Below, one piece after another: positions 6,081-57,946 of a stretch of 64,000 bases of DNA; within the stretch, counting starts at the first letter, position 1, and each line of letters opens with the position of its first letter. The notes under the pieces are model-generated. The model was not told the DNA's origin, searched no databases, and saw nothing but the letters and a program-made list of their open reading frames with translations. The translations under genes and the position numbers were made by a program. Origin of the DNA: Gammaproteobacteria bacterium (GTDB lineage Bacteria > Pseudomonadota > Gammaproteobacteria > Ga0077536); contig JACQWY010000014.1 of NCBI GenBank assembly GCA_016209015.1, positions 62,001 to 126,000 of the forward strand. The letters run 5' to 3'.

Positions 6081-6090
6081 GGAAATACCG

Positions 6091-7459: not shown

Positions 7460-7546
7460 GACGAGCCTCCTGGCATATCGAGCACTATTTGCCGGGGGCG
7501 TGCGCGGAGCGGTGTCGAGCGGACTCGGGGGCGCATCGCGGTTGGT

Positions 7547-7576: not shown

Positions 7577-7586
7577 GAGGCCGCCC

Positions 7587-8346: not shown

Positions 8347-8354
8347 GGCCTGCC

Positions 8355-10912: not shown

Positions 10913-11569
10913 CTATTTCACGACCGTGAGTCCGAGCGACTGCCATTCCTGCATGCCGCCCCGGAACCATTTGATCTTGTGCGCCGGGTATCCGAACTTC
11001 AGCAGCGTCCGGATGTTCGTCGGCGACTGCGCACACCAGGGCCCGTTACAGTACAGGACGAGGGTCTTCGCTTCAGAGTAGTCCCACAGCCCTTCCTGGC
11101 TGCGCGCACCGAAGCGCTTCTCGAGGATTTCGGCGATCTCGATCGGGTCCGCGCCGGCTTCCGGATTCAGTTTCGTCCAGGGCAGGTTGACCGAGCCGGG
11201 AATCGTGCCTTTCGCGAGCCAATCGGGAGTACGCGAATCGATGACGAGGATCGATTTGTCGCCGCGCTCGATCGCCCCCAGGTAACCGAGCACCTCGAGC
11301 TCGCCGACCGTCTCCACGCCTGGGGCGAGCGTGCCCGGCTGGACGCAGAACGGCGGGCAGTCGCGCGAGGTCTTGGCGTAATCCGCGCTGATCGTGTGGT
11401 TCGGATCCTGGTCGCGCATGATGGTGACGGGCTTGCCGTCGTGCGTCACCCGGACGCTCTCCAGATCGGCGGTGATCTTGACCTTGAGCTGCCCGGCCAT
11501 CGCGCCAACGGCGAAAAGCCCGCACGCGATGAACGGGACGATACGACGTAACGGGAAGACGTCGGCCAT
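10913..11569 (-). CDS. Exported rhodanese-domain protein
   Basis: A 218-aa protein with a signal peptide (residues ~1-24), an N-terminal segment with a Cys pair (CPPFC), and a C-terminal rhodanese domain (~90-218: VIDSRTPDWL, GSVNLPW, then loop LYCNGPWCAQS). The catalytic Cys is in YCNGPWC; the loop holds a second Cys and lacks the CxxxxR pattern of thiosulfate sulfurtransferase. It probably handles sulfur or a thiol in the periplasm. The ATG at 11569 is preceded by GAGAGG; an earlier in-frame ATG at 11605 is less likely. The substrate is unknown. Confidence 0.8.
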   Translation of the reverse strand: MADVFPLRRIVPFIACGLFAVGAMAGQLKVKITADLESVRVTHDGKPVTIMRDQDPNHTISADYAKTSRDCPPFCVQPGTLAPGVETVGELEVLGYLGAIERGDKSILVIDSRTPDWLAKGTIPGSVNLPWTKLNPEAGADPIEIAEILEKRFGARSQEGLWDYSEAKTLVLYCNGPWCAQSPTNIRTLLKFGYPAHKIKWFRGGMQEWQSLGLTVVK

Positions 11570-11638
11570 GGCATACCTCTCGCCGGTCGGGACAACGCCG
11601 GACATCCGGCTCGGTCGATTATGCCACCGCCCGCCACG

Positions 11639-13852
11639 CTAGAGCGCGTCCTGAGGATCGACGTCCAGTGACCAGCGGACGCGCCGGCGTGCCGGGAGGG
11701 CCTCGGCTGCGACGACGAAACTGCGCAGCGCCGCCGCGATCTCGGCGCGGCGCGGCGCTCTCAGCACGATTTGCGCCCGGAACTTTCCGGCACGCTTCTC
11801 CATCGCCGCGGCGACCGGCCCTTCGACTTCGAGTCCGGCGGGTGCGATGCGGCGCAGGCGGGCGGCGACGGCTTCGAGGAACTGCTGGGGATAGCGGCGG
11901 TCCGTCGCTTCGGCGCGGATCATCGCCATGGCGTGGAACGGCGGCAGCGCCGCGGCTTCGCGTTCGGCGAGCGCAGCGGCGGCGAAACCCTCGTAGCCGT
12001 GGCCGAAGACGCGCGCGAACAGCGGGTGCTCGGGATGATGGGTCTGCACGAGGACTTCGCCGGGCGCTTCCGCGCGTCCGGCGCGCCCCCCGACCTGGGT
12101 CAGGAGCTGCGCGAAGCGCTCCTCGGCGCGGAAGTCGAGGCTGAACAGGCGGCTGTCGGCGTCGACGACCGCGACGAGCGTGATACCCGAGAAGTCGTGC
12201 CCCTTCGCGAGCATCTGCGTGCCGATCATGATGTCGAGCCGGCGCGCGCGGATGTCCTCGAACGTGCGCCGGATCGCCTCCCGGCCGCGCATCGTGTCGC
12301 GGTCGATGCGTGCGATGCGCTGGCCAGGAAAAGCGGCGGCGAGCGCTTCGGCGACGCGCTCCGTGCCGACGCCGAGCGGGACGAGATCCGGCTCGCCGTC
12401 GCAGGTGTGATCAGGGACGGGTCGCGACAGCGGGTGCACGGCGCCGCAATGATGGCAGTGCAGCGCTTCGCCCTTCTTGTGCCAGACGAGCCGCGCGTCG
12501 CAGCGTGTGCAGCGCCCGACCCAGCCGCAGCGATGACAGATCACGGTCGGCGCGAAGCCGCGGCGGTTCAGGAACAGCAGGACCTGCTCGCGCCGCGCGA
12601 GGCGCTCGCCGATCGCGCGAAGCAGCGCCTCGGACAGGCCGCCGTCGAGCTTCAGGCCGCGGATGTCGAGGAGGCGCACGCGCGGCAGGACGGCGCTGCC
12701 GGCCCGCGTCCGCAGATGCACGGTCTCGTAGCGGCCGCGCTGACCGTTCAGGCAGGACTCGAGCGAGGGTGTCGCCGAGCCGAGCACGATGGGAACGTCG
12801 CGCTGGCGGGCGCGCATCACCGCGACGTCGCGCGCCGAGTAGCGCAGTCCGTCCTGCTGCTTGTAGGAGGCATCGTGCTCCTCGTCGATCACGAGGAGAC
12901 CCAGACGCGGCAGCGGCGCCCAGACCGCCGAGCGCGTGCCGAGCAGGATGCCGAGCTCGCCGCGCCGGCAGGCCGCCCACGTCTGCGCACGCGCCTGATC
13001 GGTGAGCCCCGAGTGGAGCACCCCGACGGCCGCGCCGAAGCGGGCCTCGAAGCGCGCGACGAGCGCCTGGGTCAACGCGATCTCGGGCACGAGCATGAGG
13101 ATCTGACGACCCGCTGCGAGCAGCTCGCGCATCGCCTGCATGTAGACTTCGGTTTTGCCGCTGCCGGTCACGCCCTGCAGCAGCACGACGCCGAAACCGC
13201 CGAAATGGGCGCGTACCGCAGCGAGCGCGCGTTCCTGATCCGCGTTCAGGACATGGAACGGCTCGAGCGGCGCGGACGCATGCGCCGCGGTGCCCTGGAC
13301 CGCGACGAGTACGCGCTCGAGCGCACCGAGCTTCTCCAGCTCGCGCACCGCACGGCGCGCGTCGAAATCGAGCGCGGCAAGGGCTGCGGCGTCGAGATCC
13401 GCCGCGCCCGCGAGCGCGAGGACGGCATGACGGCGGTGCGCCGGCCCGGCCGGCGTCGCGCCGAGCGCGCGGCCGGCGTCGGTGATCCGCCAGACCGTCC
13501 GCAGCGCTTCGCGCGGCGCACGGCCGCGCCGCACTTCCGCCGGCAACATGCCGCTCAATATTTCACCGAGGGGATGCTGATAGTAGTCGGCGGCCCAGCG
13601 CGCGAGCCGGAGCTGCTCGGCGTCGAACACGGGCGCTTCATCGAGGATCTCGCTCGCGGCTTTCGTGGCGAGCCTCGCACCGTCTTCGCGACAGGCGAGG
13701 ACGACGCCGAAACGCGTGCCGCGCCCGAAAGGCACGCGCACGCGGCAGCCCGACGCTATCGCCGGATCGGTCCCCGCAGGCAGGAAGTAATCGAATGTCT
13801 GACGCAGCGGCGCGAACACCGCCACCTCGAGTACGAACCGGGAGGGCGTCAT
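11639..13852 (-). CDS. priA: Primosomal protein N' (replication-restart helicase)
   Basis: A 737-aa superfamily 2 helicase that restarts stalled forks. Features in order are the 3' DNA-binding domain, Walker A GVTGSGKTE, a DEEHD box (VIDEEHDASYK), LGSATPS, a zinc region with paired CxxC motifs (CHRCGWVGRCTRCDARL and CHHCG), and the C-terminal helicase lobe with GTQMLAKGHDF and QVGGRAGR. The start at ATG 13852 gives MTPSRFVLEVAV and forms TGATG with the stop of the upstream gene. Confidence 0.96.
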   Translation of the reverse strand: MTPSRFVLEVAVFAPLRQTFDYFLPAGTDPAIASGCRVRVPFGRGTRFGVVLACREDGARLATKAASEILDEAPVFDAEQLRLARWAADYYQHPLGEILSGMLPAEVRRGRAPREALRTVWRITDAGRALGATPAGPAHRRHAVLALAGAADLDAAALAALDFDARRAVRELEKLGALERVLVAVQGTAAHASAPLEPFHVLNADQERALAAVRAHFGGFGVVLLQGVTGSGKTEVYMQAMRELLAAGRQILMLVPEIALTQALVARFEARFGAAVGVLHSGLTDQARAQTWAACRRGELGILLGTRSAVWAPLPRLGLLVIDEEHDASYKQQDGLRYSARDVAVMRARQRDVPIVLGSATPSLESCLNGQRGRYETVHLRTRAGSAVLPRVRLLDIRGLKLDGGLSEALLRAIGERLARREQVLLFLNRRGFAPTVICHRCGWVGRCTRCDARLVWHKKGEALHCHHCGAVHPLSRPVPDHTCDGEPDLVPLGVGTERVAEALAAAFPGQRIARIDRDTMRGREAIRRTFEDIRARRLDIMIGTQMLAKGHDFSGITLVAVVDADSRLFSLDFRAEERFAQLLTQVGGRAGRAEAPGEVLVQTHHPEHPLFARVFGHGYEGFAAAALAEREAAALPPFHAMAMIRAEATDRRYPQQFLEAVAARLRRIAPAGLEVEGPVAAAMEKRAGKFRAQIVLRAPRRAEIAAALRSFVVAAEALPARRRVRWSLDVDPQDAL

Positions 13853-14514
13853 CAGCCGTCGAGGATCGCGCTGCCGCTCCGATCCCCCCACAGGACCGCA
13901 TCGCCACGGCCTTCTGCGAGCAGCGCCTCGAGCGCGGCCGCGCTCATGCGGCGGTAGGGCTGGCCATCGAGCGGGCTGAGCGGGGCCTGGATGAGGCGCT
14001 TGTGCGGCATGACGACGAGTTCGAAATCGAAGTCCTGCCGCGACACCTCGAAGACGGTGTAGGTCTCGAGTGCGCGACCGCCGGTCGCGAGCGTCTTTTC
14101 CGCGAGACGATAAGCGATGCCGTGTTGCACGAGGAAACGCGAGACGGCCTCGACCTCGTCGTCGAAGAGATGCAGGGCGATGGATGAGTGCTCGAACGCC
14201 GTGCCGTAGAGGACGGGGCCGACGAGACGGGGCGAGAACGGCGCGAAGAACCGCATCGCCGCGAGCGCCGCTTCGCGCATCCGGGTCACGCGCGCCCCTG
14301 CCTCGACAGGCTCGAACACGCGCTGGTAGCCGATGATCGCGGCTTGCACCTCGAGGTTGTCCGGTGCCTGCCTGGCATCGCTCACGCCGAGCTGCGCGGC
14401 AGCCTTGCGTTTCGCCGCGGCAAAGCTGTCGGCCTCGCCTTCGACGAGCATGCGCGCCGCGGCGTTCGCGATGTCCGCGCGCAGATTGCGCCCGCGACGC
14501 CGCCGTTCACGCAC
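13852..14514 (-). CDS. Nucleotidyltransferase-like conserved protein
   Basis: About 220 aa, between mrcA and priA. The N-terminal half is helical (RADIANAAARMLVEGEADSF, then AAAKRKAAAQLGV). The central PRLVGPVLYGTAFEHSSIALHLFDDE looks like the G-S plus hDh strand pattern of a nucleotidyltransferase fold, but the canonical acidic residues are weak. This family is usually annotated only as nucleotidyltransferase or hypothetical. The start is uncertain: the GTG at 14514 is the first sensible codon after the mrcA stop, and upstream frame is mrcA shadow. The stop overlaps the priA start. Function is unknown. Confidence 0.7.
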   Translation of the reverse strand: MRERRRRGRNLRADIANAAARMLVEGEADSFAAAKRKAAAQLGVSDARQAPDNLEVQAAIIGYQRVFEPVEAGARVTRMREAALAAMRFFAPFSPRLVGPVLYGTAFEHSSIALHLFDDEVEAVSRFLVQHGIAYRLAEKTLATGGRALETYTVFEVSRQDFDFELVVMPHKRLIQAPLSPLDGQPYRRMSAAALEALLAEGRGDAVLWGDRSGSAILDG

Positions 14515-43541: not shown

Positions 43542-44291
43542 ATGCAAAAGCATGCATGCGAACTGTCGAGTGCAGTAGCTCTTACCCTTTTGATCGCCTC
43601 CCCGGTACAAGCGGCGCTTGTGGAGCGCCTAGGCGGCTTGGCCTACTACGACACCGTTATCGATGTCACGTGGCTAGGGAATGCTAACTTGGCCGCAGAG
43701 CAGACTTTTGGCGTCGCCGGAATAGTCAGCCTTCCCGGAGCCATAACGGGTAAAGGCGCGGACGGGACAATGTCCTGGGACGTCGCGAATCAGTGGGTCG
43801 CCAGGATGAATGCTGTTCGCTACCTGGGCTCCAACCAGTGGCGCCTTCCCACCATGATTGATACCGGTGCTCCAGGGTGCGATTTCTCGAATGCAGGGAC
43901 GGACTGCGGCTGGAATGTCCAGACTACGGAAAACGGCATCGTGTACAGCGAGATGGCAAGTTTGTACTACGACACGCTCGGAAATGCCGCGTCGGTGAGC
44001 CCGTCCGGTGCGTACTTATTTTCTGCGAATTTGAACATCGGCCCGTTTTCGAATTTTTCTCCGAACTGGTACTGGCTCGGCTTGCAGTACTCTCCGGGGG
44101 TCGCTTGGTCTTTTGCTTTCTACATCGGCGAGCAAGACGGCAACGCGAAAATGGAGCTACTTAACGTTGAACCCGTCGTATCGGGCGACCCTTTCAGATC
44201 AGTGCCGCTCCCCCCTGCGCTTCCCTCGGTCCTCGCGGCACTAGCGGCGATGTATGTGGGCAGGCAGTTCCGCCGAGTTCCGTCAGATTGA
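43542..44291 (+). CDS. Secreted DUF1566-like protein with exosortase-type sorting tail
   Basis: A 249-aa protein with a signal peptide (residues ~1-24). The DUF1566/Lcl-type body contains YDTVIDVTWLGNANLA, WDVANQWVARMN and NQWRLPTM. The C-terminal tail has VPLP, a hydrophobic helix and an Arg-rich end (VPLPPALP...GRQFRR), matching the plan of PEP-CTERM/VPLPA-CTERM signals processed by exosortase. Base composition is more AT-rich than its neighbours. GGGAGG precedes the ATG. It was probably acquired, or belongs to an extracellular-matrix protein set; function is unknown. Confidence 0.72.
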   Translation: MQKHACELSSAVALTLLIASPVQAALVERLGGLAYYDTVIDVTWLGNANLAAEQTFGVAGIVSLPGAITGKGADGTMSWDVANQWVARMNAVRYLGSNQWRLPTMIDTGAPGCDFSNAGTDCGWNVQTTENGIVYSEMASLYYDTLGNAASVSPSGAYLFSANLNIGPFSNFSPNWYWLGLQYSPGVAWSFAFYIGEQDGNAKMELLNVEPVVSGDPFRSVPLPPALPSVLAALAAMYVGRQFRRVPSD

Positions 44292-45695: not shown

Positions 45696-46430
45696 ATGAG
45701 CGCCGCCCGTCCGACCGTCCAGTTCACCGATCCCTATTTCCTCGATCCCGGCACGCGCCTGCTGCCACCTTTCGGCTCCGCCGAGGATGCCGCACGCTGG
45801 GCGACTTATCTCGGCCGCAGCGTGACACGCGCGCCGCTCGATCTGACCCGGCACACGCGCCGCATCCTCGCGCTGCGCGCCTATCGCGACGGCGTCGGCC
45901 TCTACGGCGCACTGCTCGACTTGTTCATCGCCCTCGGCCCGCGCGGCCGCGATTTGCGGCGCGGGCTCCTGCGGCAGTCGGCGCCGCTGCTCGCGCCGGA
46001 CGCTGCCGCGTTCCTCGCCGCACACCTCGACGAGGGCGTGCTCGCGACGACGCCGCATCCGCCGGCTCCGGCCTCACGGCTCACCGGGGCGCTGCGCGGC
46101 ACGCTCGAATGTCTCGAACAGCTCGCCGGCCCCGGCGCCGCGCCTGCCGCCCGCGACGCGCTCGCCGACGCGCTCGAGCTGCTCGCGCAGGGCGAGGTGG
46201 CGACCCCGATGGCACTGCTCGAGGACGCACTCGCGGGTGCACCGGCCTCGTTCGACGCACTGGCGCTGCTGCTCGAAATCTATCGCCGCGGCCGCTACGG
46301 CGAGGCGTTCGCGCAGCTCTGGGCGCGCCAACCCGGACTCGCTGCGACGGCGCCGGAGCTGTGGGCCGAGACCGCGGCATTCCTCCACGTCGCGCCGCCG
46401 CGCGCGGGAGCGACGACACATGGCCGCTGA
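45696..46430 (+). CDS. Unrecognised helical protein, first gene of the kinase-GTPase operon
   Basis: 244 aa, Ala/Leu-rich and probably all-helical. The N-terminus (QFTDPYFLDPGTRLLPPFGS) is unlike known domains. The middle contains a TRRILALRAYRDGVGLYGALLDLF helix pair. The C-terminal ~80 residues resemble TPR-like helix pairs (ALLEDALAGAPASFDALALLLEIYRRGRYGEAF). It has no signal peptide or membrane helix. It overlaps the next gene by 11 nt. I do not recognise a family; it may be an adaptor. Confidence 0.7.
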   Translation: MSAARPTVQFTDPYFLDPGTRLLPPFGSAEDAARWATYLGRSVTRAPLDLTRHTRRILALRAYRDGVGLYGALLDLFIALGPRGRDLRRGLLRQSAPLLAPDAAAFLAAHLDEGVLATTPHPPAPASRLTGALRGTLECLEQLAGPGAAPAARDALADALELLAQGEVATPMALLEDALAGAPASFDALALLLEIYRRGRYGEAFAQLWARQPGLAATAPELWAETAAFLHVAPPRAGATTHGR

Positions 46431-48120
46431 CCGGCATCCGGTCCGGGTCGAGCTCGTCGGCTTCGACGAGCGCCATCGCGCGACACTCGACGTCTTGTTC
46501 CAGGGACCCGGCAAAGGCGCGTGCACGATAGTCGCCGGGGGGCACGCGCAGGCCGCGATCATCGACGTCGATCGCATCGGCGGACTCGCGGGCTGGGAGG
46601 ACTACCGCCGCACGCACCCGCACGCGCCGACGGCGATCGTCTCCATCTACGACAAGAACCGAGTCGAGGGCGAGATCTTCCTGCGCAAGCCCGTGAAGAT
46701 CGACGACATGCTCTATGCCGTCGCCGCGATCCGCGCCCGGCTGCTCGGCACCGCCGCGCCCACCGCCCGCGCCGAGCCCGTCACGACCTCGGCGTTCACC
46801 CGCTCCGCGGCCGATCCGAAGAGCGAGACGGTGTGGCCGCAAGCCGTGCCGCGCAGCGTGCTGCGCGCGCGTGCCGCGGCGGCCGGCGGCACTCCGGCCG
46901 CGCCGCAACCGGTGGCGGTCGCCGGACCGGCGGCACGGCCGGCGCCGCGTCCGGTGCCGGTTCCCGCGGCGATCGAGGAGCCGATCACGCGCACCCGCAT
47001 GATGGCCTCCGCGGCCGCGCGTGCCGCGGCCAACGACGGTGCGCGTGCGGCACCCCCGTCCGAGCCCGCCACCGCGACGCGCCGCCACTTCGGCGTCGCC
47101 GCGCGCTCGAGCGCGGTGCGGGTGCGCATTCCCGATCCCGAGCGGGCGACGCAGAGCGTCCCCTCGCGGATAGGTGCGGGACCAGGGCTCGATCCGCAGA
47201 CATTCGCGCCCCAGCTCGCGGCGCTCGGCAAAGCGGCACGTGAGGCGCAGACGGCCTTGTCGCCGCACTCGGCGGTGGCCGCGAGCGCGCCTGCGGTCCC
47301 TGTCGCGCCGTTGCCCCTCGCCGTTGCGCCGACCGCTAGGGACGGCGACAAGCCGGTCGCGATCCCGCCGCCGTTGAGCGCCGGGCCGCTGCCGGTCGCA
47401 CCCCCGACGACGACGCCGGAGGAGCGTGCGCTGTGCGGCTCGGCCACCGACATCGATTGCATGGATGCGCGCGCCGTCGAGGGCCTGTGGTTCGACGCCG
47501 AGCAGAGCCCCTACGCTGCGGTGCGCACCGCCATTCGCAATGCCCAGCGCGATCGCGGCTACTGGCTGCTCGTGCACGAGGGCCGCACGCTGCTGTGCGC
47601 GGACGGCGTGCGCCAGGAAGTGATCCTGCACGTGCCGAAGGACGAGATCCGCCGCCTGTGCGCGGAGGAAGGCCAGGCCGGCAAAGCCACGATGCGGCGC
47701 GTGACGCAGGCGCTGGGCGCCGGCCTCACGCTGCCGATCGAAGCCGTGCTGTGGGAGATGGCGCTCTGGACCTACCGCGGCCGGCTGCCGGCGGGCACGG
47801 ATCTCGCGCAGCGCGTGAAGCTCACGCGCTGGCCGAACTTCACGCGGCTCATCGAGATCCCGGAGTCGCTGCGCATCGCCGCGATCCTGAGCCAGCAGGC
47901 GCTCACGCTGCCGTTCGTGGCCGAGGCCCTGCACGTCCCGCAGCGTTACGTGTTCGCGTTCTACGGCGCGGCCCACGCGCTCGGCATCGCCGAGAAGGTG
48001 CAGCGCGAAGTGCCGGCCGCCCTGGTGCCGGATGCGGAGCCCGAGGCCGAGCCGCCGACGGTCAACGTCTTCACCCGCATGTGGGCGCGCGTGCGCGGAC
48101 TGTTCGGACATGTCGGCTAG
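46420..48120 (+). CDS. Receiver-like protein with long Ala/Pro linker and C-terminal helical domain
   Basis: 566 aa. Residues ~5-110 look like a degenerate response-regulator receiver: AAIIDVDRIGG in the place of the phospho-Asp strand, TAIVSIYD, then FLRKPVKIDDML with the Lys-Pro pair. Residues ~115-345 form an Ala/Pro-rich, low-complexity linker. The C-terminal ~220 residues form a folded domain (YAAVRTAIRNAQRDRGYWLLVHEGRTLLCADG, then a winged-helix-like TLPFVAEALHVPQRYVFAFYGAAHALGI). ATG 46420 lies inside the previous gene's end. Its own end overlaps the kinase gene by 11 nt. Confidence 0.75.
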   Translation: MAADRHPVRVELVGFDERHRATLDVLFQGPGKGACTIVAGGHAQAAIIDVDRIGGLAGWEDYRRTHPHAPTAIVSIYDKNRVEGEIFLRKPVKIDDMLYAVAAIRARLLGTAAPTARAEPVTTSAFTRSAADPKSETVWPQAVPRSVLRARAAAAGGTPAAPQPVAVAGPAARPAPRPVPVPAAIEEPITRTRMMASAAARAAANDGARAAPPSEPATATRRHFGVAARSSAVRVRIPDPERATQSVPSRIGAGPGLDPQTFAPQLAALGKAAREAQTALSPHSAVAASAPAVPVAPLPLAVAPTARDGDKPVAIPPPLSAGPLPVAPPTTTPEERALCGSATDIDCMDARAVEGLWFDAEQSPYAAVRTAIRNAQRDRGYWLLVHEGRTLLCADGVRQEVILHVPKDEIRRLCAEEGQAGKATMRRVTQALGAGLTLPIEAVLWEMALWTYRGRLPAGTDLAQRVKLTRWPNFTRLIEIPESLRIAAILSQQALTLPFVAEALHVPQRYVFAFYGAAHALGIAEKVQREVPAALVPDAEPEAEPPTVNVFTRMWARVRGLFGHVG

Positions 48121-49621
48121 AAGCGTCGCCACCCTGCCGCCCGGGATGGCGCTCGGCGAATACCAGCTCGAAGCGGTGCTCGGCACGGGCGGCTTCGGCG
48201 TCACCTACCGCGCGACGGACACCTATCTCGGCATGCGCGTCGCGCTCAAGGAGTTCTATCCGTGCGAGCTCGTGACGCGCGACGCCCCGGGCGCCGTGCA
48301 ACCGCGCGGCGGCTGCGAGCAGATCTATCAGAAAGGACTCGAGCAGTTCCTCGGCGAAGCGCAGGTGATGGCGCGCTTCCGCCACCCGAACATCGTGCGC
48401 GTGCTGCGCTTCTTCACGGCGAACGAGACCGGCTACATCGTGATGGACTTCGAGGAGGGCGAGAGCCTCGCGCATCATCTGCGCCGCATCGCCACGCCGC
48501 TCACGGAGCAGCAGATCCTGGAAATCATGCTGCCGATCATGCGCGGTCTGCTCGAAGTGCACGAGAAAGGCATCCTCCACCTCGACATCAAACCGGCGAA
48601 CATCTTCCTGCGTCGCAACGGCATGCCCGTGCTGCTCGATTTCGGCGCCGCGCGGCTCGGTGCCGCGGCGGTGACGGACCAGGACATCGTCTCGCTGACC
48701 TCGGGCTACGCGCCCCCGGAGCAATACGAGGGCGCCTCGCGGCTGAGTCCGGTCGTCGACGTCTACGCGCTCGGCGCGACGCTCTACCGCTGCTTCACGG
48801 GCCGGCCGCCGGTCGACGCGCTGAAGCGCCGGATCGCCATCGGCGCCGGCCAGGACGATCCCCTCCCGCCGCTCGCGCGGGTCGCCCCCGAGCGCTGCAG
48901 CCCGGGCATGAGCCAGGCGATCAAGAAGATGCTCGCGCTCGAGCCCGCGGAGCGCCCCGGCACGATGGCCGAGGTGTTCGAACTGCTGGAGGTCGTCGAT
49001 CAGGAGCGCGAGCCGAATTCGGGCCCCGGCCGCTCGCGCGCCGCCTCGCGGCGCCGTCATCCCGCGGAGAACCTGAAAGTCATCATCGCGGGCCCGGTCG
49101 GCGCGGGCAAGACGACCGCGGTCGCGACCCTGAGCGACATCGAGCCCGTGCGCACCGACGCCGCCGCGACCGACATGACGAAGAACCTGAAGCTGCAGAC
49201 CACCGTCGCGTTCGACTACGGCGTGGTGCGTCTCGACGGCGGCGAGCGCGTGCATCTCTACGGCACGCCGGGCCAGGAACGCTTCGACTTCATGTGGGAC
49301 ATCCTGCGCAAGGGCGCGGCAGGCGTCGTGCTGCTCATCGACAACAGCCGGCGCGAGCCCTTCCGCGATCTCGATTTCTTCATCGACGCGTTCGGCGATC
49401 TGATCGCTTCCACGCAGCTCGCGATCGGCATCACGCGCATGGACATCAAGGCGATGCCGACCATCGACGACTACGCGCAGCACCTGATGGGCGAGAATCG
49501 CGGCTGGACGTCGCTGCCGCCGCTCTTCGCCGTCGATGCCCGCAACCGCAACGATCTGACCGTCCTCGTACGGGCCCTCCTGCTCTGCATGGATCCCGGT
49601 GTGGAGAACTACCGTGTCTGA
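48110..49621 (+). CDS. Ser/Thr protein kinase fused to an MglA-type small GTPase
   Basis: 503 aa. The N-terminal Hanks kinase (residues ~18-295) has Gly-loop LGTGGFGVTY (25-34), Lys47 in VALKEF, the catalytic loop HLDIKPAN (HLD in place of HRD; D159, K161, N164), DFG at 178-180, and an APPEQ stretch near 201. After a basic linker, residues ~322-500 form a COG2229/MglA-like GTPase. This has Walker A GPVGAGKT (328-335), GTPGQE (385-390), and TRMD (442-445) in the NKxD position. All key kinase and Walker residues are present. It overlaps genes on both sides. No membrane helix is seen, so it is cytoplasmic. This fusion is the core of the operon. Confidence 0.9.
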   Translation: MSARSVATLPPGMALGEYQLEAVLGTGGFGVTYRATDTYLGMRVALKEFYPCELVTRDAPGAVQPRGGCEQIYQKGLEQFLGEAQVMARFRHPNIVRVLRFFTANETGYIVMDFEEGESLAHHLRRIATPLTEQQILEIMLPIMRGLLEVHEKGILHLDIKPANIFLRRNGMPVLLDFGAARLGAAAVTDQDIVSLTSGYAPPEQYEGASRLSPVVDVYALGATLYRCFTGRPPVDALKRRIAIGAGQDDPLPPLARVAPERCSPGMSQAIKKMLALEPAERPGTMAEVFELLEVVDQEREPNSGPGRSRAASRRRHPAENLKVIIAGPVGAGKTTAVATLSDIEPVRTDAAATDMTKNLKLQTTVAFDYGVVRLDGGERVHLYGTPGQERFDFMWDILRKGAAGVVLLIDNSRREPFRDLDFFIDAFGDLIASTQLAIGITRMDIKAMPTIDDYAQHLMGENRGWTSLPPLFAVDARNRNDLTVLVRALLLCMDPGVENYRV

Positions 49622-50333
49622 CTATCGCCTGGCCGAAGGTCTGTTCCTCGCGATCACGCCGGCGGGCGCGTACTACGCCGTCTCGCGCGACGAGCCCGAA
49701 CCGCTGCGTACGCTGCTGCTCGCGCTGCTCGCCGCCGACGTCTCGCCGCCGCTCGACGAGCATACGCTGTTCCAGCTCGCCTCGGAGACCGGCGAGAGCG
49801 ACGTCGCGGCACTGCTCCATCGTGCGCAGCGGCTCGCGCTGATCCAGGGCGAGACGATGGCGGTCAACGCCCCGGTCGCGAGCCTCGAGATGCGCGCCCC
49901 CGCGCTCATCGCCGAGCTCTCCGGCCTCGGCCGTGCCGTGCTCGCGGAAGCCGACGGCTTCTACGTCGCGCGTGCCGACGTGCCGCACGAGGCCGCCGAG
50001 GAGATCTCGGCGCTGTCGGCGGATCTGTCCGCGCTCATCACCCGTCATCGCGGGCTGCTGAGCAACAACCTGAATCTCGGCGCGGACGCGTGGGGTGCAC
50101 TCGACGCGGCCGGCAACAGCACGCTCGGTATCTGGCCCCTGTACGTCGGGGGCAAACGTTTCGCGCTCGCCATCCTCGGTGAGCCGCGTCTGAACCGGCC
50201 AGGATTCACGGAGCTGATCTGGCTGCTCGTCCGCCGTTACGGCCATGTCCAGCCCGATGCCGACGAGCTTGTCTCGCGCTCGCGAGCGAGCTACGCCGCG
50301 CACCGGCTGAGCCAGGCCCACGACGAGGGTTGA
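49614..50333 (+). CDS. Divergent Roadblock-like protein
   Basis: 239 aa, starting with GTG at 49614, 8 nt inside the kinase-GTPase gene. The N-terminal ~90 residues look like a winged-helix-type domain (LRTLLLALLAADVSPPLDEHTLFQLASE). The C-terminal ~140 residues (ALIAELSGLGRAVLAEADGFYVARADV, LGIWPLYVGGKRFALAILGEPRL) resemble a degenerate Roadblock/LC7 fold. It could act as a GTPase-binding partner. The family assignment is tentative; the context is strong. Confidence 0.65.
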   Translation: MSDYRLAEGLFLAITPAGAYYAVSRDEPEPLRTLLLALLAADVSPPLDEHTLFQLASETGESDVAALLHRAQRLALIQGETMAVNAPVASLEMRAPALIAELSGLGRAVLAEADGFYVARADVPHEAAEEISALSADLSALITRHRGLLSNNLNLGADAWGALDAAGNSTLGIWPLYVGGKRFALAILGEPRLNRPGFTELIWLLVRRYGHVQPDADELVSRSRASYAAHRLSQAHDEG

Positions 50334-50369
50334 ACCCGAATTTTTTCTTTGCGCCAAGGAGAGTAGGAA

Positions 50370-50732
50370 ATGCGTGAGGAGGTTCTCGAGTCGATTCTGA
50401 TCGACCTGAACGGCGCCTCGGCGGATATCGAGGCTTCGGCCGTGATCTCCACCGACGGATTGATGATTGCCTGCGTGATGCCGGCCGGCCTCGACGAGGA
50501 TCGGGTCGGCGCCATGACCGCGGCCATGCTGTCGCTCGGCGATCGCACCTCGGCCGAGCTCGTGCGCGGCGATCTGGAACAGGTGATGGTGAAGGGCTCG
50601 CGCGGCTACGTGCTGATCATCCACGCCGGCCAGGATGCCGTGCTGTGCGTGCTCGCCAAGACCACCGCGAAGCTCGGTCTCATCTTCCTCGACGCCAAAC
50701 GCGCCGCGTCGAGCGTCGCCAAGGTGTTATGA
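50370..50732 (+). CDS. Roadblock/LC7 domain protein (MglB-like)
   Basis: A 120-aa single Roadblock/LC7 domain: ILIDLNGASADIEASAVISTDGLMIA, MLSLGDRTSAELVRGDLEQVMVKGSRGYVLI, VLAKTTAKLGLIFLDAKRA. Such dimers act as GAPs or co-regulators of MglA-type GTPases. AAGGAGAG precedes the ATG. It follows the divergent Roadblock-like gene after 36 bases, and the fused GTPase is the obvious partner. Confidence 0.9.
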   Translation: MREEVLESILIDLNGASADIEASAVISTDGLMIACVMPAGLDEDRVGAMTAAMLSLGDRTSAELVRGDLEQVMVKGSRGYVLIIHAGQDAVLCVLAKTTAKLGLIFLDAKRAASSVAKVL

Positions 50733-50755
50733 AGCGTCCGCAGGGAGGGTAGACC

Positions 50756-51244
50756 ATGAAAGACATGACCGAAGCGGACGTCCGCGAACCCGGGCGCGCC
50801 AGCACGCTCACGTTCCACGACGGCACGCAGCGACGCGTGATCTGCACGCAGCGGGAAGTGCCGTTTCCGGACGGCGAGCTCATCGTCTCGCGCACCGACA
50901 CGCGCGGCATCATCACGCACGCAAACGAAGCTTTCGTGCTGATGTCGGGCTACGCGCTCGCCGAATTGATCGGTGCGCCTCATCACATTCTGCGCCATCC
51001 GGACATGCCGGCCGTGGCATTCAAAGGCCTCTGGGATACGATTGAGGCCGGGAAGAAATGGCACGGCTACGTGAAGAATCTGCGCCGGGACGGCGCGTAC
51101 TACTGGGTATACGCCACCGTCGTGCCGAACGTGCGGAACGGGCAGATCGTGGGCTATACCTCGGTGCGTCGCAAACCTTCGCTGACGAAAGTGGCGGAGG
51201 CCGACGCGCTCTACAAGACGCTCGTACCGTCGTCGAACGCGTGA
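50756..51244 (+). CDS. Stand-alone PAS-domain protein (Aer-like)
   Basis: 162 aa with one PAS domain (residues ~40-140): TRGIITHANEAFVLMSGYALAELIGAPHHILRHPDMP, WDTIEAGKKWHGYVKNLRRDGAYYWVYATVVP. The sequence matches the PAS of Aer-type redox receptors (PHHILRHPDMP, KNLRRDG), so FAD binding is possible. There is no output domain and no membrane helix. It is preceded by GGAGGG and lies in the signalling operon, likely as its redox or energy sensor. Confidence 0.88.
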   Translation: MKDMTEADVREPGRASTLTFHDGTQRRVICTQREVPFPDGELIVSRTDTRGIITHANEAFVLMSGYALAELIGAPHHILRHPDMPAVAFKGLWDTIEAGKKWHGYVKNLRRDGAYYWVYATVVPNVRNGQIVGYTSVRRKPSLTKVAEADALYKTLVPSSNA

Positions 51245-51257
51245 AGGAGGATACGCG

Positions 51258-52001
51258 ATGACCTATCTGATGACGCTCAGCCCCGATTTCAATACGAAGT
51301 TCCTGCCCGGCTGGTTCGTGTTCAACACCTGGCTGCAGAAGAAGTTGAACCAGCACATCCATCTCGAGATCTACAACGACTTCCGCACCCAGCGCGATGC
51401 GATCACGGCCGACAAGGTTGACATCATCTACGCCAATCCCTACGACGCCTCGATGCTCGTGCGCGAGCGCGGCTTCGTGCCGGTGACGAAGCCGATCGGG
51501 CGCGCCGACGAGGCGATCGTCGCCACCGCGGCGGACGGCCCGTACCGCAAGCTCGAGGATCTCAGGCCCGGCACGCGCATCGCCTCGACCGACGATCCCG
51601 ATGTGCACACGATCGGCATGATCCTGCTCGAGCCTGCCGATCTGAACGTCGAGAACGTGCTCATCGAGCGCTACGACAACTACGTCGTCATCGTGAAGAA
51701 GCTCCTGAACGGCGAGGCCGACGCCGGCTTCTTCCTCGCCGAGATGTTCAACGAGCTCTCGGCGAGCACACGCTCGCGCCTCAAGGTGCTGATGCAGAGC
51801 CGGATCTACGTCGTGCACCACGCGCTGCTCGTCGGACCGCGCTTCGCGGACCACCAGGAGGCGATGCGCGACGCGCTGACCGCGATGACGGAGGAGCCGC
51901 GCACCGCGCGCATCCTCTCCGACATGGGCATCAAAGGATGGGACGTGCTCGACGACGAGGCGACCGAGTTCATGATCGACCTGATGGACACGCTCGTCTG
52001 A
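51258..52001 (+). CDS. PhnD-like binding-fold protein without signal peptide
   Basis: 247 aa of the periplasmic phosphate/phosphonate-binding (PhnD) fold. DFNTKFLPGWFVFNTWLQKKLNQHIHLEIYNDFRTQRDAI, VDIIYANPYDASMLV, RIASTDDPDVHTIGMILLE and GEADAGFFLAEMF are typical. It has no signal sequence or lipobox and no transporter genes nearby, so it should be cytoplasmic. A strong GAAGGAGG precedes the ATG, 13 bases after the PAS gene. It probably binds a small oxyanion or metabolite as an input to the operon. Confidence 0.8.
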   Translation: MTYLMTLSPDFNTKFLPGWFVFNTWLQKKLNQHIHLEIYNDFRTQRDAITADKVDIIYANPYDASMLVRERGFVPVTKPIGRADEAIVATAADGPYRKLEDLRPGTRIASTDDPDVHTIGMILLEPADLNVENVLIERYDNYVVIVKKLLNGEADAGFFLAEMFNELSASTRSRLKVLMQSRIYVVHHALLVGPRFADHQEAMRDALTAMTEEPRTARILSDMGIKGWDVLDDEATEFMIDLMDTLV

Positions 52002-52168: not shown

Positions 52169-52591
52169 ATGCTGCACAAGCCCACCCTCAAGGCGGCGAT
52201 GTCGCCTTTCCCCTATTCCATCGCGATCGACGCCAGGGTCGAAGACGCCCGGCATCTCATGAGCCAGCACAACGTGCGCCACCTGCCGGTCGTCGACGGG
52301 CAGCGGCTCGTCGGCATCGTGAGCGATCGCGATTTGCGCGTGCTGTTCTGCGCCGCGAACATCGCGGACTTCAAGGTGCGTGACGTGTACGTCGCCGAGC
52401 CCTACGTCGTCGAGCTCGACACCCCGCTCGAATGCGTGCTCGGTGAGATGGCGGACCGCCAGATCGGCGCGGCGCTCGTCACGCGCAACGGCAAGCTCGC
52501 CGGCATCTTCACCGCGGTCGACGCCTGCCGGAGCTTCGAGACGTTCCTGGACGAGGCCTTCCCGGCACCCGGCCCCGATCTGCGCGCCTGA
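52169..52591 (+). CDS. Two-CBS-domain protein
   Basis: A 140-aa CBS pair: SIAIDARVEDARHLMSQHNVRHLPVVDGQRLVGIVSDRDL and VVELDTPLECVLGEMADRQIGAALVTRNGKLAGIFTAVDACR. Such modules bind adenine nucleotides and regulate partners. There is no other domain. It lies 167 bases after the signalling operon with its own leader, so it may be separately transcribed. It is convergent with the LysR gene. Confidence 0.88.
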   Translation: MLHKPTLKAAMSPFPYSIAIDARVEDARHLMSQHNVRHLPVVDGQRLVGIVSDRDLRVLFCAANIADFKVRDVYVAEPYVVELDTPLECVLGEMADRQIGAALVTRNGKLAGIFTAVDACRSFETFLDEAFPAPGPDLRA

Positions 52592-52604: not shown

Positions 52605-53516
52605 TCAGCCCGCGAGCCGCGCCGCGATGAGCGAGGACGCCCATTCGACGAACACGCGGACTTTCGCGGAGAGGTGGCGGTTCGGCGGATAGATGACGTA
52701 GATCGGCAGCGGCTCGGCGCGCCAGTCGGTGAGCACGGGCACGACGCCGGGCGTGTCCTGCTCCGCACCCAGCATGAAATGCGGCATGCCGATGATGCCG
52801 AGCCCGGCACCGCCTGCGGCGAGATAGGCCTCGGCGTCGTTCACCGCGAGCTGGCCCTTCAAGGCGAGCTTGATCGTCTCACCGCCCTTCGTGAACACCC
52901 AGTCGAAGAGCTTGCCGGTCTGCGGCGAGAAATAATTCACGCAGCGGTGCGCGAGGAGCTCCTGCGGATGGCGCGGATGGCCGTGCCGCTCGAGATAGCC
53001 CGGCGCGGCGCAGAGCACGAACTGCAGGGTGCCGATCTGCTGCGCGACGAGGCTGTTGTCGACGAGATCGCCGCCGCGGATCGCGCAGTCGATGCCCTGC
53101 TCCATGAGGTCCACGGGCCGGTCGCTGCAGCAGAGCTCGAGGTGGATTTCGGGATAGCGCGCGAAGAACTCCGGCAGCGCCGGCACGAGCACGCGCCGGC
53201 CGAGCACGACACCGACGTCGACCCGCAGGCGCCCGCTCGGCGCGGACTGGGTGCGGGCGAGCGCGCTCTCGGTCTCCGCGACCTCGGCGAGAATGCGCAC
53301 GCAGCGGTCGTAGTAGGCGGCGCCGTCGGGGGTGACGCTGACGCGCCGCGTCGTGCGGTTCAGGAGCCGGACCGAGAGCCGGGACTCGAGCCGCTGGATG
53401 AGCGTCGTCACGGTCGCCTTCGGCATCCGCAACTGGCTGGCCGCGCGCGAGAACCCTCCGGTGTCCACGACCCGCACGAAGACCTCCATCGCCTGCAGTC
53501 GATCCAAACCTTCCAC
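52605..53516 (-). CDS. LysR-family transcriptional regulator
   Basis: A 303-aa LysR regulator. The N-terminal winged HTH (residues ~8-65, MEVFVRVVDTGGFSRAASQLRMPKATVTTLIQRLESRL) is followed by the effector-binding domain. It is of the CrgA/YafC-like subgroup. It is transcribed divergently from the RND efflux operon with a 108-bp intergenic region that holds palindromes, so it probably controls both. The inducer is unknown. Confidence 0.93.
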   Translation of the reverse strand: MEGLDRLQAMEVFVRVVDTGGFSRAASQLRMPKATVTTLIQRLESRLSVRLLNRTTRRVSVTPDGAAYYDRCVRILAEVAETESALARTQSAPSGRLRVDVGVVLGRRVLVPALPEFFARYPEIHLELCCSDRPVDLMEQGIDCAIRGGDLVDNSLVAQQIGTLQFVLCAAPGYLERHGHPRHPQELLAHRCVNYFSPQTGKLFDWVFTKGGETIKLALKGQLAVNDAEAYLAAGGAGLGIIGMPHFMLGAEQDTPGVVPVLTDWRAEPLPIYVIYPPNRHLSAKVRVFVEWASSLIAARLAG

Positions 53517-53524
53517 CCGCCGTA

Positions 53525-53550
53525 TTGTTCAGATAATTGAACAGTCAATT
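53525..53550. promoter_or_regulatory. Candidate LysR operator in the divergent region
   Basis: TGTTCA (53526-53531) and TGAACA (53538-53543) form a perfect inverted repeat with a 6-base centre. A second one, AATTGA (53535-53540) with TCAATT (53545-53550), overlaps it. This is the form expected for a LysR-type T-N11-A site. It lies just upstream of the regulator's own start. Confidence 0.5.
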
Positions 53551-53624
53551 CCATTCTAACTAGTTTGTCCTGATTGAATAGATCAATATGATGCAGTGCA
53601 TTGAGCCTTCTTCGAGACTAATCC

Positions 53625-54797
53625 ATGAGTCCTACCCAGCGCCGCTGGCAGGTGTCCGCGTGCGCCCTGGCGCTCGCGCTGGGCGCCTGCAGTAAAGCTC
53701 CCGCCCCGCCGCCTGCGAGCGCGAACCAGGCGCCGCCGCCGGTCAGCGTGGCGGCCGCCATCGAACGCGAGGTCCGGGAGAGCGACGAGTTCCCGGGCCG
53801 CATCGAGGCGACGGACGCCGTCGAGGTCCGGGCCCGGGTCAACGGCTACCTGCAGGCCGTGAAGTTCGAGCCCGGCGCGCTCGTCCGCAAGGGCGATCTG
53901 CTGATCGTCATCGACCCCCGCCCGTTCCAGGCCGCGCTCGACCAGGCCGAGGCGGCGCTGGCGAGCACGCGCGCCCAGCTCGCGCTCGCCCGTACCGAGC
54001 TCACGCGGCAGGAACAGCTCCTCAAGGACCGCGCGACCGCGAAGCGCGAGTACGACACCGCGGCGGCCCAGGTGCAGAGCCTGGAGGCGCGCGCCCACGC
54101 CGATGCGGCGACGATCGCGACCGCCCGCCTCAATCTCGAGTACACGCACATCACCGCGCCGATCAGCGGCCGCGCCGGCAAGGACGAGGTGACGGTCGGC
54201 AATCTCATCCAGGGCGAGGTGCCGAATTCTCCGGTGCTGACCACGATCGTCTCGCAAGACCCCGTCTACGTGTCCTTCGAGGCCGACGAGCGCGCCTATC
54301 TGAAATACATCGGACCGGCGCGCAACGGTCAGCTCGAGGTCGCCGTCGGTCTCGCCGACGAGAAGGACTTCCCGCACCAGGCGAAGCTCGGCTTCATCGA
54401 CAACCGCATCGACACCGCGAGCGGCACGGTGCGCCTGCGCGCCGTGCTCGACAACTCCGCCGGGCGCTTCACGCCGGGGCTCTTCGCGCGCGTGAAGCTG
54501 AACGCGACCGCCGCGCCGCGCCGCGTCGTGATGGTCGCGGATCGCGCAATAGGCACCGATCAGAGCAAGCGCTTCGTGCTGGTCGTCGACGACCAGCACC
54601 TCGCGCAATACCGCGAAGTCCGCATCGGTCGCGCCGAGCGCGGCCTGCGCGTGATCGAGGACGGCCTGAAAGCCGGTGAGACGATCGTCGTCAACGGCCT
54701 GCAGCGCGCGCGGCCCGGCATGCCCGTCACGCCGCAGACGGTCGAAATGGACGGCGTGCCCGGCGGCGCCCCCGCGGAGGCCCCGGCGGCGAAGTAA
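53625..54797 (+). CDS. RND efflux periplasmic adaptor lipoprotein
   Basis: A 390-aa membrane-fusion protein with a lipobox (LALALGAC, Cys22). The barrel-sandwich/lipoyl half-motifs (VRARVNGYLQAVKFEPGALVRKGDLLIVIDPRPF), an alpha-helical hairpin (~95-160) and a beta-barrel with GTVRLRAVLDN follow. It bridges the RND pump and the outer-membrane channel. It overlaps the pump gene by one base (TAATG). It resembles the MexE type. Confidence 0.93.
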   Translation: MSPTQRRWQVSACALALALGACSKAPAPPPASANQAPPPVSVAAAIEREVRESDEFPGRIEATDAVEVRARVNGYLQAVKFEPGALVRKGDLLIVIDPRPFQAALDQAEAALASTRAQLALARTELTRQEQLLKDRATAKREYDTAAAQVQSLEARAHADAATIATARLNLEYTHITAPISGRAGKDEVTVGNLIQGEVPNSPVLTTIVSQDPVYVSFEADERAYLKYIGPARNGQLEVAVGLADEKDFPHQAKLGFIDNRIDTASGTVRLRAVLDNSAGRFTPGLFARVKLNATAAPRRVVMVADRAIGTDQSKRFVLVVDDQHLAQYREVRIGRAERGLRVIEDGLKAGETIVVNGLQRARPGMPVTPQTVEMDGVPGGAPAEAPAAK

Positions 54798-57700
54798 TGG
54801 TCGATTTTCCGCGCCATTTCGTCGATCGCCCGATCCTCGCGGGCGTGCTCTCGCTCCTCGTCTTCTCCGCGGGCCTGCTCGCGCTGAAATTCCTGCCGGT
54901 TTCGGAATATCCCGAGGTCGTGCCGCCTTCCGTCATGGTGCGCGCGACATACCCCGGCGCGAATCCCAAGGTCATCGCCGAGACCGTCGCCGCGCCGCTC
55001 GAAGAGCAGATCAACGGAATCGAGAACATGCTCTACATGTCCTCGCAGGCGACGACGGACGGCGTGCTGCAGTTGACGGTCACGTTCAAGATCGGCACGA
55101 ACGCCGAGCTCGCCGAGACGCAGGTACAGAACCGCGTGCAGCGCGCCCTGCCGCGCCTGCCCGAGGAAGTCCGCCAGATCGGCGTCGTCACGCAGAAGCA
55201 GTCGCCGAATCTCACCATGGTCGTGCACCTGCTCTCGAAGGACGGGCGCTACGACGAGCTGTATCTGCGCAACTACGCGGTGCTGAACCTCAAGGACAAT
55301 CTGCAGCGCATTCCGGGCATGGGGGAGGTCGCGGTCTTCGGCGCGGGCGAATACGCGATGCGCGTGTGGCTCGATCCCTCGAAGCTCGCCGCGCGCTCGC
55401 TGACCGTCACGGACGTCGTCGCCGCGGTCCGCGAGCAGAACCAGCAGGTCGCGGCCGGCGTCGTCGGCGGTCCGCCGGCGGCGAAGAACGCGGAATTCCA
55501 GCTCTCGGTGAACGCGCAGGGCCGGCTCGCGAACGAGGAGGAATTCGGCAACATCGTGCTCGCGACGACGGCGGACGGCGGCGTGCTGCGGCTGCATGAC
55601 GTCGCGCGCATCGAGCTCGGGGCCGGCGAATACGCGCTGCGCAGCCTGCTCGACAACAAGCCCGCTGTCGCGATCGTCGCGTTCCAGGCGCCGGGATCGA
55701 ACGCGATCGCGCTCTCGAACCAGGTGCGGAAAACGATGGCGGAGGCGAAGAAGAGCTTCCCGGCGGGTGTCGACTTCCAGATCGTCTACGACCCGACGCG
55801 CTTCGTGCAGAAATCGATCGAGGCCGTGGTCAGCACGCTGCTCGAGGCCGTCGCGCTGGTCGTGCTCGTGGTGCTCATCTTCCTCAAGACCTGGCGCGCT
55901 GCGATCATCCCGCTCGCCGCCGTGCCGGTCTCGATCGTCGGCACGTTCGCGGTCATGTACGCGTTGGGCTTCTCCATCAATACGCTGACGCTCTTCGGCC
56001 TCGTGCTCTCGATCGGCATCGTCGTCGACGATGCAATCGTCGTGGTCGAGAACGTGGAGCGCAACATCGAGCTCGGCTTCCACCCGATCGAGGCCGCCTA
56101 CCGCGCGATGCGCGAAGTGAGCGGACCCATCATCGCAATCGCGCTGACGCTCTGCGCCGTGTTCGTGCCGATCGCCTTCATCAGCGGTCTGACGGGCCAG
56201 TTCTACCGCCAGTTCGCGTTGACGATCGCGATTTCGACCGTCATCTCGGCGTTCAACTCGCTCACCCTCTCGCCTGCGCTCGCCGCGATGCTCCTCAAAC
56301 CCCACGATGCGCCGCGCGACTGGCTCATGCGCGCGATGGACGCGGCGTTCGGCTGGTTCCTCAATGGCTTCGAGCGCCTGTTCCTGAAATCCGCGACGGG
56401 CTACACGGCGGCCGTCGGCCTGCTGATGCGCCACCGCTTCAGTGTCGTGCTCGTCTACCTCGGGCTCATCGCCGTGACTTACGTCGCGTTCACGATCGTG
56501 CCGCGCGGCTTCGTGCCGGCGCCGGACAAGCAATATCTCATCGCCTTCACGCAGTTGCCGGACGGCGCCTCGCTCGATCGCACGGAGCAGGTCATCCGCC
56601 GCATCACCGACGTCGCGCTGAAGACGCCCGGCATCGAGAACGCGGTCGCCTTCCCGGGCCTCTCGATCAACAACTTCACGAACGCGCCGAACGCGGGCGT
56701 GATGTTCTTCGGCCTCGACGAATTCGCGAAGCGGCGCACGCCCGATCTCTCGGGCGGCGCACTCGCGATGGAGCTCAACAAGCGCCTCGGCGCGATCGAG
56801 GATGCGTTCATCGCGGTCTTCCCGCCGCCGCCCGTCGAGGGCCTGGGCGCCATCGGCGGCTTCAAGCTCGAGATCGAGGACCGCGCCGGACTCGGCGACG
56901 AGGCGCTCTACCAGACCGTGCAGGCCGTGCAGATGAAGGCCTGGCAGACGCCGGGGCTCGTCGGCGTCTTCTCGAGCTATCAGATCAACGTGCCGCAGCT
57001 CTTCGCGGACGTCGATCGCGTGAAGGCGAAGCAGATGGGCGTCGCGCTCGGCGACATCTTCGCGACGATGCAGGTCAATCTCGGCTCCTATTACGTGAAC
57101 GACTTCAGCCGCTTCGGCAAGACCTATCGTGTGGTCATCCAGGCCGATGCGCCGTTCCGCGCCCACGCCGAGGACATCGCGCAATTGAAGACGCGCAACA
57201 AGGCGGGCGACATGGTGCCGCTCGGCGCGCTGCTGAAAGTGGAGAACAGCTACGGGCCCGATCACGCGATGCGCTACAACGCCTTCCCCGCCGCCGACAT
57301 CAACGGCAGCGGCGCGCCGGGGGTGGCCTCCGGGCAGGCACAGGCGATGATGGAGAAGATCCTCGCCGAAACGCTGCCGAAGGGCATCGGTTTCGAGTGG
57401 ACGGATCTCACGTACCAGGAGATCCTCGCCGGCAATACCGCCGTCATCGTCTTCCCGCTGTGCGCGTTCCTCGTCTTCCTCGTGCTCGCCGCGCAGTACG
57501 AGAGCTTCCGGCTGCCGCTCGCGATCATCCTCATCGTGCCGCTGTGCCTGCTGTTCGCGATCGGCGGCGTGTTCCTCACGCACGGCGACAACAACATCTT
57601 CACCCAGATCGCGCTGTTCGTGCTGATGGGGCTCGCCTGCAAGAACGCGATCCTGATCGTGCAGTTCGCGCGCGAGCTCGAGCGCCACGAGCACGGCGCG

Positions 57701-57946
57701 GGTCCGGTGCGTGCCGCGCTCGAAGCGTGCCGCATGCGCCTGCGGCCGATCCTGATGACGTCTTTCGCGTTCATCATGGGCGTCGTGCCGCTCGCGACCT
57801 CGACCGGCGCGGGCGCGGAGATGCGCCGCGCGATCGGCGTCGCGGTCTTCTCGGGCATGCTCGGGGTGACGATCTTCGGGTTGTTCCTGACGCCGGTGTT
57901 CTACGTCCTCGTGCACGGCTACCACAAGCGGAGCCAGCACGCATGA
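54797..57946 (+). CDS. RND multidrug efflux pump (HAE1 family)
   Basis: A 1049-aa proton-driven inner-membrane pump with 12 membrane helices and two large periplasmic loops. The TM4 proton-relay Asp pair is in GIVVDDAIVVVENVER, and the N-terminal motif FVDRPILAGVLSLLVFSAGLLAL is standard. Gene order with adaptor and outer-membrane factor, plus the divergent LysR, recalls MexEF-OprN. The substrates cannot be predicted. Confidence 0.95.
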   Translation: MVDFPRHFVDRPILAGVLSLLVFSAGLLALKFLPVSEYPEVVPPSVMVRATYPGANPKVIAETVAAPLEEQINGIENMLYMSSQATTDGVLQLTVTFKIGTNAELAETQVQNRVQRALPRLPEEVRQIGVVTQKQSPNLTMVVHLLSKDGRYDELYLRNYAVLNLKDNLQRIPGMGEVAVFGAGEYAMRVWLDPSKLAARSLTVTDVVAAVREQNQQVAAGVVGGPPAAKNAEFQLSVNAQGRLANEEEFGNIVLATTADGGVLRLHDVARIELGAGEYALRSLLDNKPAVAIVAFQAPGSNAIALSNQVRKTMAEAKKSFPAGVDFQIVYDPTRFVQKSIEAVVSTLLEAVALVVLVVLIFLKTWRAAIIPLAAVPVSIVGTFAVMYALGFSINTLTLFGLVLSIGIVVDDAIVVVENVERNIELGFHPIEAAYRAMREVSGPIIAIALTLCAVFVPIAFISGLTGQFYRQFALTIAISTVISAFNSLTLSPALAAMLLKPHDAPRDWLMRAMDAAFGWFLNGFERLFLKSATGYTAAVGLLMRHRFSVVLVYLGLIAVTYVAFTIVPRGFVPAPDKQYLIAFTQLPDGASLDRTEQVIRRITDVALKTPGIENAVAFPGLSINNFTNAPNAGVMFFGLDEFAKRRTPDLSGGALAMELNKRLGAIEDAFIAVFPPPPVEGLGAIGGFKLEIEDRAGLGDEALYQTVQAVQMKAWQTPGLVGVFSSYQINVPQLFADVDRVKAKQMGVALGDIFATMQVNLGSYYVNDFSRFGKTYRVVIQADAPFRAHAEDIAQLKTRNKAGDMVPLGALLKVENSYGPDHAMRYNAFPAADINGSGAPGVASGQAQAMMEKILAETLPKGIGFEWTDLTYQEILAGNTAVIVFPLCAFLVFLVLAAQYESFRLPLAIILIVPLCLLFAIGGVFLTHGDNNIFTQIALFVLMGLACKNAILIVQFARELERHEHGAGPVRAALEACRMRLRPILMTSFAFIMGVVPLATSTGAGAEMRRAIGVAVFSGMLGVTIFGLFLTPVFYVLVHGYHKRSQHA

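Follow-up and report, generated by a model that had tools for sequence, protein, structure and literature searches.

The closest described systems to the locus in this study are the Group 3 MglA systems, which occur in many beta- and gamma-Proteobacteria and combine a protein made of a receiver-like domain, a linker and an HTH-like region with an MglA GTPase and one or two MglB proteins (Wuichet and Sogaard-Andersen, 2014; PMC4316618). In that account, Group 3 GTPases are marked by a Thr where Group 1 has its Arg finger, by GTPGQ in G3, by the loss of the G4 Lys and by DAR in G5, and Phyre2 predicted a winged HTH in the companion protein family. The survey was confined to GTPases no longer than 240 aa, and GTPases fused to further domains would therefore have escaped it. 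One experimental study touching Group 3 MglA systems was found in the literature. In Snodgrassella, which carries such a system, a point mutation in mglB altered colony spreading, which the authors attribute to pilus-dependent motility, and gave motile flares and a colonization advantage (PMC11112851).

Related arrangements are known outside Group 3. In Myxococcus, MglA-GTP and SgmX, a TPR protein, act together on type IV pili (PMC7519303), and the conservon cvn8, which belongs to the actinobacterial GTPase/Roadblock systems, controls gene expression (PMC8510531). In the Pil-Chp pathway of pilus control, FimV connects FimL/PilG to pilus position (PMC9596432). A literature search for the gene set described below, and for Roadblock proteins of Sphaerotilus and Thiothrix, found nothing.

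Gene Content of the Operon

The window, by which we mean the whole 64,000-nt stretch of DNA that was analyzed, carries a tightly packed operon of seven + strand genes at 45696–52001, all present as the earlier note had described. Genes 1/2 and 2/3 each overlap by 11 nt and genes 3/4 by 8 nt, and genes 5–7 follow after gaps of 13–36 nt. A scan of the operon for promoters and terminators found nothing above chance.

Gene 3 (48110..49621, +) encodes a 503-aa protein that joins a PpkA-like Ser/Thr kinase (residues 8–295) to a Group 3-type MglA GTPase (residues ~321–503), as evidenced through Pfam, PDB profile searches and motifs. The GTPase part reads GPVGAGKTT at Walker A, TT within TTVAFDYG, GTPGQE, TRMD and DAR, so that the claim of intact Walker A and GTPGQE motifs is borne out, and the last four of these, which are the Group 3 marks, are found in the window protein and its relatives alike. 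At 503 aa the fusion is longer than the single-domain GTPases of the Group 3 survey, whose 240-aa limit is a search setting and no biological definition. Gene 2 (46420..48120, +; 566 aa) has, in its AlphaFold model, a confident receiver fold at residues ~1–110, a long, low-complexity, disordered linker (pLDDT <50) and a conserved domain at residues 330–530 with a possible winged HTH. Its N-terminus matched receivers in Foldseek (6ont, 3.4e-4), which upholds the receiver-like call made earlier, and the succession of receiver fold, variable linker and conserved C-terminus is that of the Group 3 companion protein.

The Roadblock partners adjoin the GTPase. Gene 5 (50370..50732, +; 120 aa) is a canonical Roadblock/LC7 protein of the MglB/CvnB kind (Pfam 4.5e-15; PDB CvnB5 6.3e-12 and MglB 0.004). 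Gene 4 (49614..50333, +; 239 aa, GTG start) is Roadblock-like and divergent, with Pfam Robl_LC7 found in 10/56 homologues (best 1.5e-5) and a weak PDB match to CvnB5; the earlier call of a divergent Roadblock is thus backed by Pfam, but not by hhalign, in which gene 4 against gene 5 was negative, for which a shallow gene 5 profile is the probable reason. Downstream, the PAS and PhnD-fold genes are as predicted. Gene 6 (50756..51244, +; 162 aa) matches 8dik (Aer) at 7.5e-38 across residues 31–156 and, judged by this high similarity, is an Aer-type PAS protein that would bind FAD, and gene 7 (51258..52001, +; 247 aa) encodes a PhnD/PtxB-fold protein (PF12974 1.2e-37; PtxB 5e-4) with no evident signal peptide on inspection of its N-terminus. 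Domain and synteny evidence agrees with the proposal of a signaling operon with an MglA-family GTPase and Roadblock partners, for which the PAS and PhnD proteins are the probable inputs.

By its sequence marks and neighbors, the core of gene 2, GTPase and Roadblock is the already described Group 3 MglA system. The earlier statement that no named system has this composition therefore does not apply to the core, which is little studied, and stands for the kinase fusion, the FimV-like partner and the interchangeable sensors, which appear to be undescribed. What the window operon has in common with Group 3 is the receiver-like/linker/C-terminal protein, a GTPase with TT, GTPGQ, no G4 Lys and DAR, and one or two Roadblock proteins, whereas the fusion of the GTPase to a Ser/Thr kinase sets it apart, and the parts of PMC4316618 that were consulted make no mention of equivalents of gene 1, the Aer-type PAS or PhnD. 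The actinobacterial conservons (CvnA–D) likewise join GTPase, Roadblock, a possible HTH protein and sensory input in one operon; the present operon, however, has no CvnA-type membrane histidine kinase and instead has cytosolic sensors and a FimV-type TPR protein. DUF742 (CvnC) is absent from the operon and from the window's genome, in which the DUF742 model found nothing, and the identification of gene 2 as DUF742/CvnC was rejected for lack of support. The Myxococcus MglA/MglB/SgmX module also comprises an MglA-family GTPase, a Roadblock regulator and a TPR protein as possible effector for type IV pili, but its GTPase is of Group 1 with an intrinsic Arg finger, its components are encoded apart and it has no PAS or PhnD protein.

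Distribution and Synteny

From the 581 confirmed relatives found with a GTPase profile, the 80 best were retained, and the other operon genes were placed in the relatives' loci by HMMs. Genes 1, 2, GTPase, 4 and 5 are present in 59 of 61 well-flanked loci and all seven in 51, in a set that includes the window's own locus and favors sequences close to the query. The order 1-2-GTPase-4-Roadblock-PAS-PhnD recurs in Methylococcales, Thiothrix, Sphaerotilus, Thiodiazotropha, Chromatiales and others, and is rearranged in four loci (L055, L071, L042 and L065) with the same genes still together. Because the same order returns in dozens of genomes, the clustering is far beyond chance, and the possibility of an operon unique to one strain was discarded. 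Neither of the two results that would have counted against the earlier note, unrelated neighbors in other genomes or a dead fusion, was found.

Across a class-wide sample of 274 genomes, the GTPase (at 1e-20) was found in 46 and gene 4 in 25. There is also a second form of the system, consisting of gene 2, GTPase and Roadblock only. The kinase fusion is a rare variant, and the GTPase is usually a separate gene, being unfused in nearly all homologous operons, which overturns the earlier description of the operon as built on the kinase fusion. Nor is the kinase a general part of the module, since few loci have a fused one and searching with the kinase profile revealed no stand-alone kinase inside the module elsewhere.

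The sensor slot is variable. Where PAS/PhnD are absent or are joined by extra genes, protoglobin is found in nine well-flanked loci, and the other genes in this position encode FIST/NosP (L026), CZB (L090, L092), a PAS-SpoIIE phosphatase (L042) or an extra PhnD. The domains belong to families established as sensors or chemoreceptors and may play the same role in the module. The L042 protein (11205–13913; 903 aa), with PAS and a SpoIIE-type phosphatase, is flanked by gene 4 and a second PhnD gene and is a possible counterpart to the kinase in Ser/Thr dephosphorylation.

Gene 1 and Its Proposed Link to FimV and Type IV Pili

Gene 1 (45696..46430, +) encodes a 244-aa protein whose AF2 model (pLDDT 85.7) has a helical N-terminal domain followed by C-terminal TPR repeats. 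The proteins that the gene-1 family profile matches, in their cytoplasmic TPR stretch, include three that were verified as FimV/HubP through FimV_core and FimV_Cterm, and the similarity is one stretch of ~70 residues, in a repeat type that matches widely. Foldseek with gene 1 found nothing under 1e-3, no NCBIfam model matched the window protein, FimV_Cterm matched weakly in 3/62 homologues, and the SgmX model gave a single weak match among the homologues. FimV/HubP proper has a FimV_core LysM and FimV_Cterm, and gene 1 shares with it the cytoplasmic TPR stretch only; as judged from these comparisons, it is FimV-related through its TPRs and is not FimV itself. In 12 loci (L061, L063, L066, L069, L073, L075, L083, L088, L094, L096, L099 and L102), the module is followed downstream by a short gene of the FimV family, and three of these genes were verified by NCBIfam.

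Gene 1 is tied to gene 4 in several ways. A full-length gene 1 is present in 25/25 genomes of the class sample (274) that have gene 4 (P ~1e-34, ignoring phylogeny), the two genes are present alone in L163 and L168, and in L165 (6691–8118) they form one ORF, which suggests that their products are in direct contact. A similar joining is seen in Candidatus Thiothrix singaporensis (L088, 8606–10519), where a single ORF, uninterrupted by a stop, covers both gene 2 and the GTPase.

These observations are best accommodated, at a probability that we put at about 50%, by a Group 3 MglA sensory GTPase module to which a PpkA-like kinase has been added N-terminally, and in which signals pass from sensors to Roadblock proteins, to the GTPase, and on to gene 1, FimV and type IV pili or to gene 2 and transcription. 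Starting from the composition of the module, the folds of its proteins and the linkage of its genes, which are observed, we infer each of the functional steps. The PAS protein (probably sensing flavin/redox state) and the PhnD protein (binding a small ligand) would bias the Roadblock proteins, which, as regulators resembling GAPs or GEFs, would determine whether the GTPase is in its GTP or GDP state. The GTP-bound GTPase may then act through gene 1, whose FimV-like TPRs would engage or mimic the polar FimV/HubP landmark, so that gene 1 at this landmark would position or activate type IV pili, and gene 2 may provide a second branch, leading to transcription. In the fused variant, the kinase would add a phosphorylation input or the GTPase would gate the kinase, and the products of genes 1, 2, 4 or 5 are the likely kinase substrates.

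This reading is supported by the order of genes 1–5, which is kept in the great majority of loci despite rearrangements elsewhere, by the gene 1–gene 4 co-occurrence and the ORF joins in L165 and L088, and by the match of the gene-1 profile to FimV/HubP together with the downstream FimV-family genes. Further support comes from the sensor swaps, the Snodgrassella mglB phenotype, the part played by SgmX in Myxococcus, and the co-occurrence with PilT, a PilT-family ATPase being present in 49/49 genomes with the GTPase or gene 4 against 232/274 overall (P 1.2e-4, ignoring phylogeny). Both PilT and FimV are widespread in the class, and the genomes share ancestry, so that co-occurrence with either is weak evidence. 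On the FimV link, PilT and Snodgrassella, the role in motility or polarity that had been suggested earlier is the best-supported guess. The reading is weakened by two modules without the GTPase, namely L162 (G124; 4503–8416), where 1-2-4-globin-Roadblock adjoins a GAF histidine kinase gene, and L170 (G169; 3823–9064), with the order 1-2-4-PhnD-Roadblock-PAS-PhnD; no GTPase was found at 1e-20 elsewhere in either genome.

The output may instead be transcriptional, as in the Streptomyces conservons, with the GTPase/Roadblock pair controlling a DNA-binding gene 2 and the FimV-like TPRs serving as generic adaptors. The receiver core of gene 2 (D49, D51, S75, K90 and P91 in the window) is well kept among homologues, with D51, K90 and P91 each in 50/50 and D at position 49 in 45/50, and the winged HTH that Phyre2 predicted for this family (PMC4316618), like the control of gene expression by cvn8, is in keeping with such a switch, as a possible HTH in gene 2 would favor transcriptional output. 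The AF2 model of the C-terminal domain shows a three-helix arrangement with a strand; its profile matches to HTH proteins in the PDB, however, are non-significant (E 0.36 and 1.3), the domain has no match in Pfam, and such a switch gives no account of the FimV-family gene that adjoins the module in 12 loci; a purely transcriptional switch is the less likely reading.

Taking the pilus-directed reading further, the apparently undescribed parts suggest that the operon controls surface pili at the pole of the cell. We tentatively propose, as something that falls short of an even chance, a GTPase-based counterpart of Pil-Chp control, in which swappable cytosolic chemoreceptor-type sensors (Aer-PAS, protoglobin, NosP/FIST, CZB, PhnD-fold) would act on a Roadblock-regulated Ras-like switch and through it on the FimV/HubP pole landmark, the switch being coupled to a Ser/Thr kinase in one lineage. 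The operon resembles Pil-Chp/FimV/FimL in having a FimV-type TPR region and chemoreceptor-type inputs with a putative link to pili, but it is GTPase-based and without a CheA-type phosphorelay. The conserved FimV-like partner and the swappable sensor slot offer specific, testable guesses for the input and output of Group 3 systems.

The Kinase–GTPase Fusion

The N-terminal part of gene 3 matches Pkinase in Pfam (E 2.7e-41, residues 18–286), and its nearest PDB entry is PpkA (1e-50). The residues K47, E83, D159, N164 and DFG 177–179 are all intact, in agreement with the K47 and D159 assigned earlier, the DFG having been placed one residue too far along (178–180). Going by these intact catalytic motifs and the best similarity to PpkA, gene 3 is a PpkA-type Ser/Thr kinase. 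Its catalytic loop reads HLD instead of HRD, and with Leu for the Arg it would be a non-RD kinase.

The fusion is known in six genomes, being those of the window, G032 (L002), L026, L070, G157 (L178) and G552 (L197), and among 399 genomes of the phylum that were searched, only the window's genome and G552 score across both the kinase and the GTPase domains. The GTPase tree, built from the relatives gathered in this study, and the kinase tree each allow one fusion event for all six (AU p 0.396), and are thus compatible with a single origin, which neither tree proves. K47, E83, D159, N164 and D177 are kept in 5/5 aligned fusions. The G4 Asp is missing in L026 and L070 and the switch motifs in L178, where the kinase is intact and the GTPase degenerate; GTPase function would therefore not be strictly maintained among the fusions.

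By comparison with PpkA, which acts through FHA proteins to control type VI secretion, the fusion may be a signaling enzyme of its own, in which the GTPase gates a PpkA-like kinase and the window operon controls an output other than that of unfused operons. The nearness to PpkA, the trees that let the six fusions be one lineage, the degenerating GTPase of L178 and the change of the L026 sensor to FIST/NosP would all fit such an enzyme. The remaining genes in fused operons (window, L070 and L197) are nevertheless the same in kind as those in unfused operons, and the genes inspected next to the window operon include none of FHA or T6SS type; a separate output is unlikely. A kinase that is non-productive or a mere tether, leaving an operon that works exactly like an unfused Group 3 system, could be read from the Leu in the HRD motif of the window protein and from the rarity of the fusion; the catalytic residues kept throughout the aligned fusions argue against it, as does the fact that non-RD kinases can be active, and we regard it as quite improbable. 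On the preferred reading, in which the kinase is an addition to a Group 3 sensory module, the fusion is one protein in which the coupling of two kinds of switch can be tested.

PADLOC matched kinase domains only, and none of the other operon genes, and a reading of the locus as anti-phage defense was rejected.

Flanking Genes

Directly downstream of the operon, the window encodes a 140-aa double CBS-domain protein (52169–52591), whose conservation with the module is absent; it matched one locus among those searched, which is the window's own region, and it was rejected as an eighth member. Upstream, at 43542–44291, lies a gene for a 249-aa putative secreted protein without an NCBIfam match, whose VPLPPAL...RR tail resembles a PEP-CTERM-like sorting signal. 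At 52605–57946, a LysR-type regulator gene on the - strand is transcribed away from a gene pair for an RND efflux adaptor and its permease (MexE/OqxA- and OqxB-like), an ordinary arrangement.
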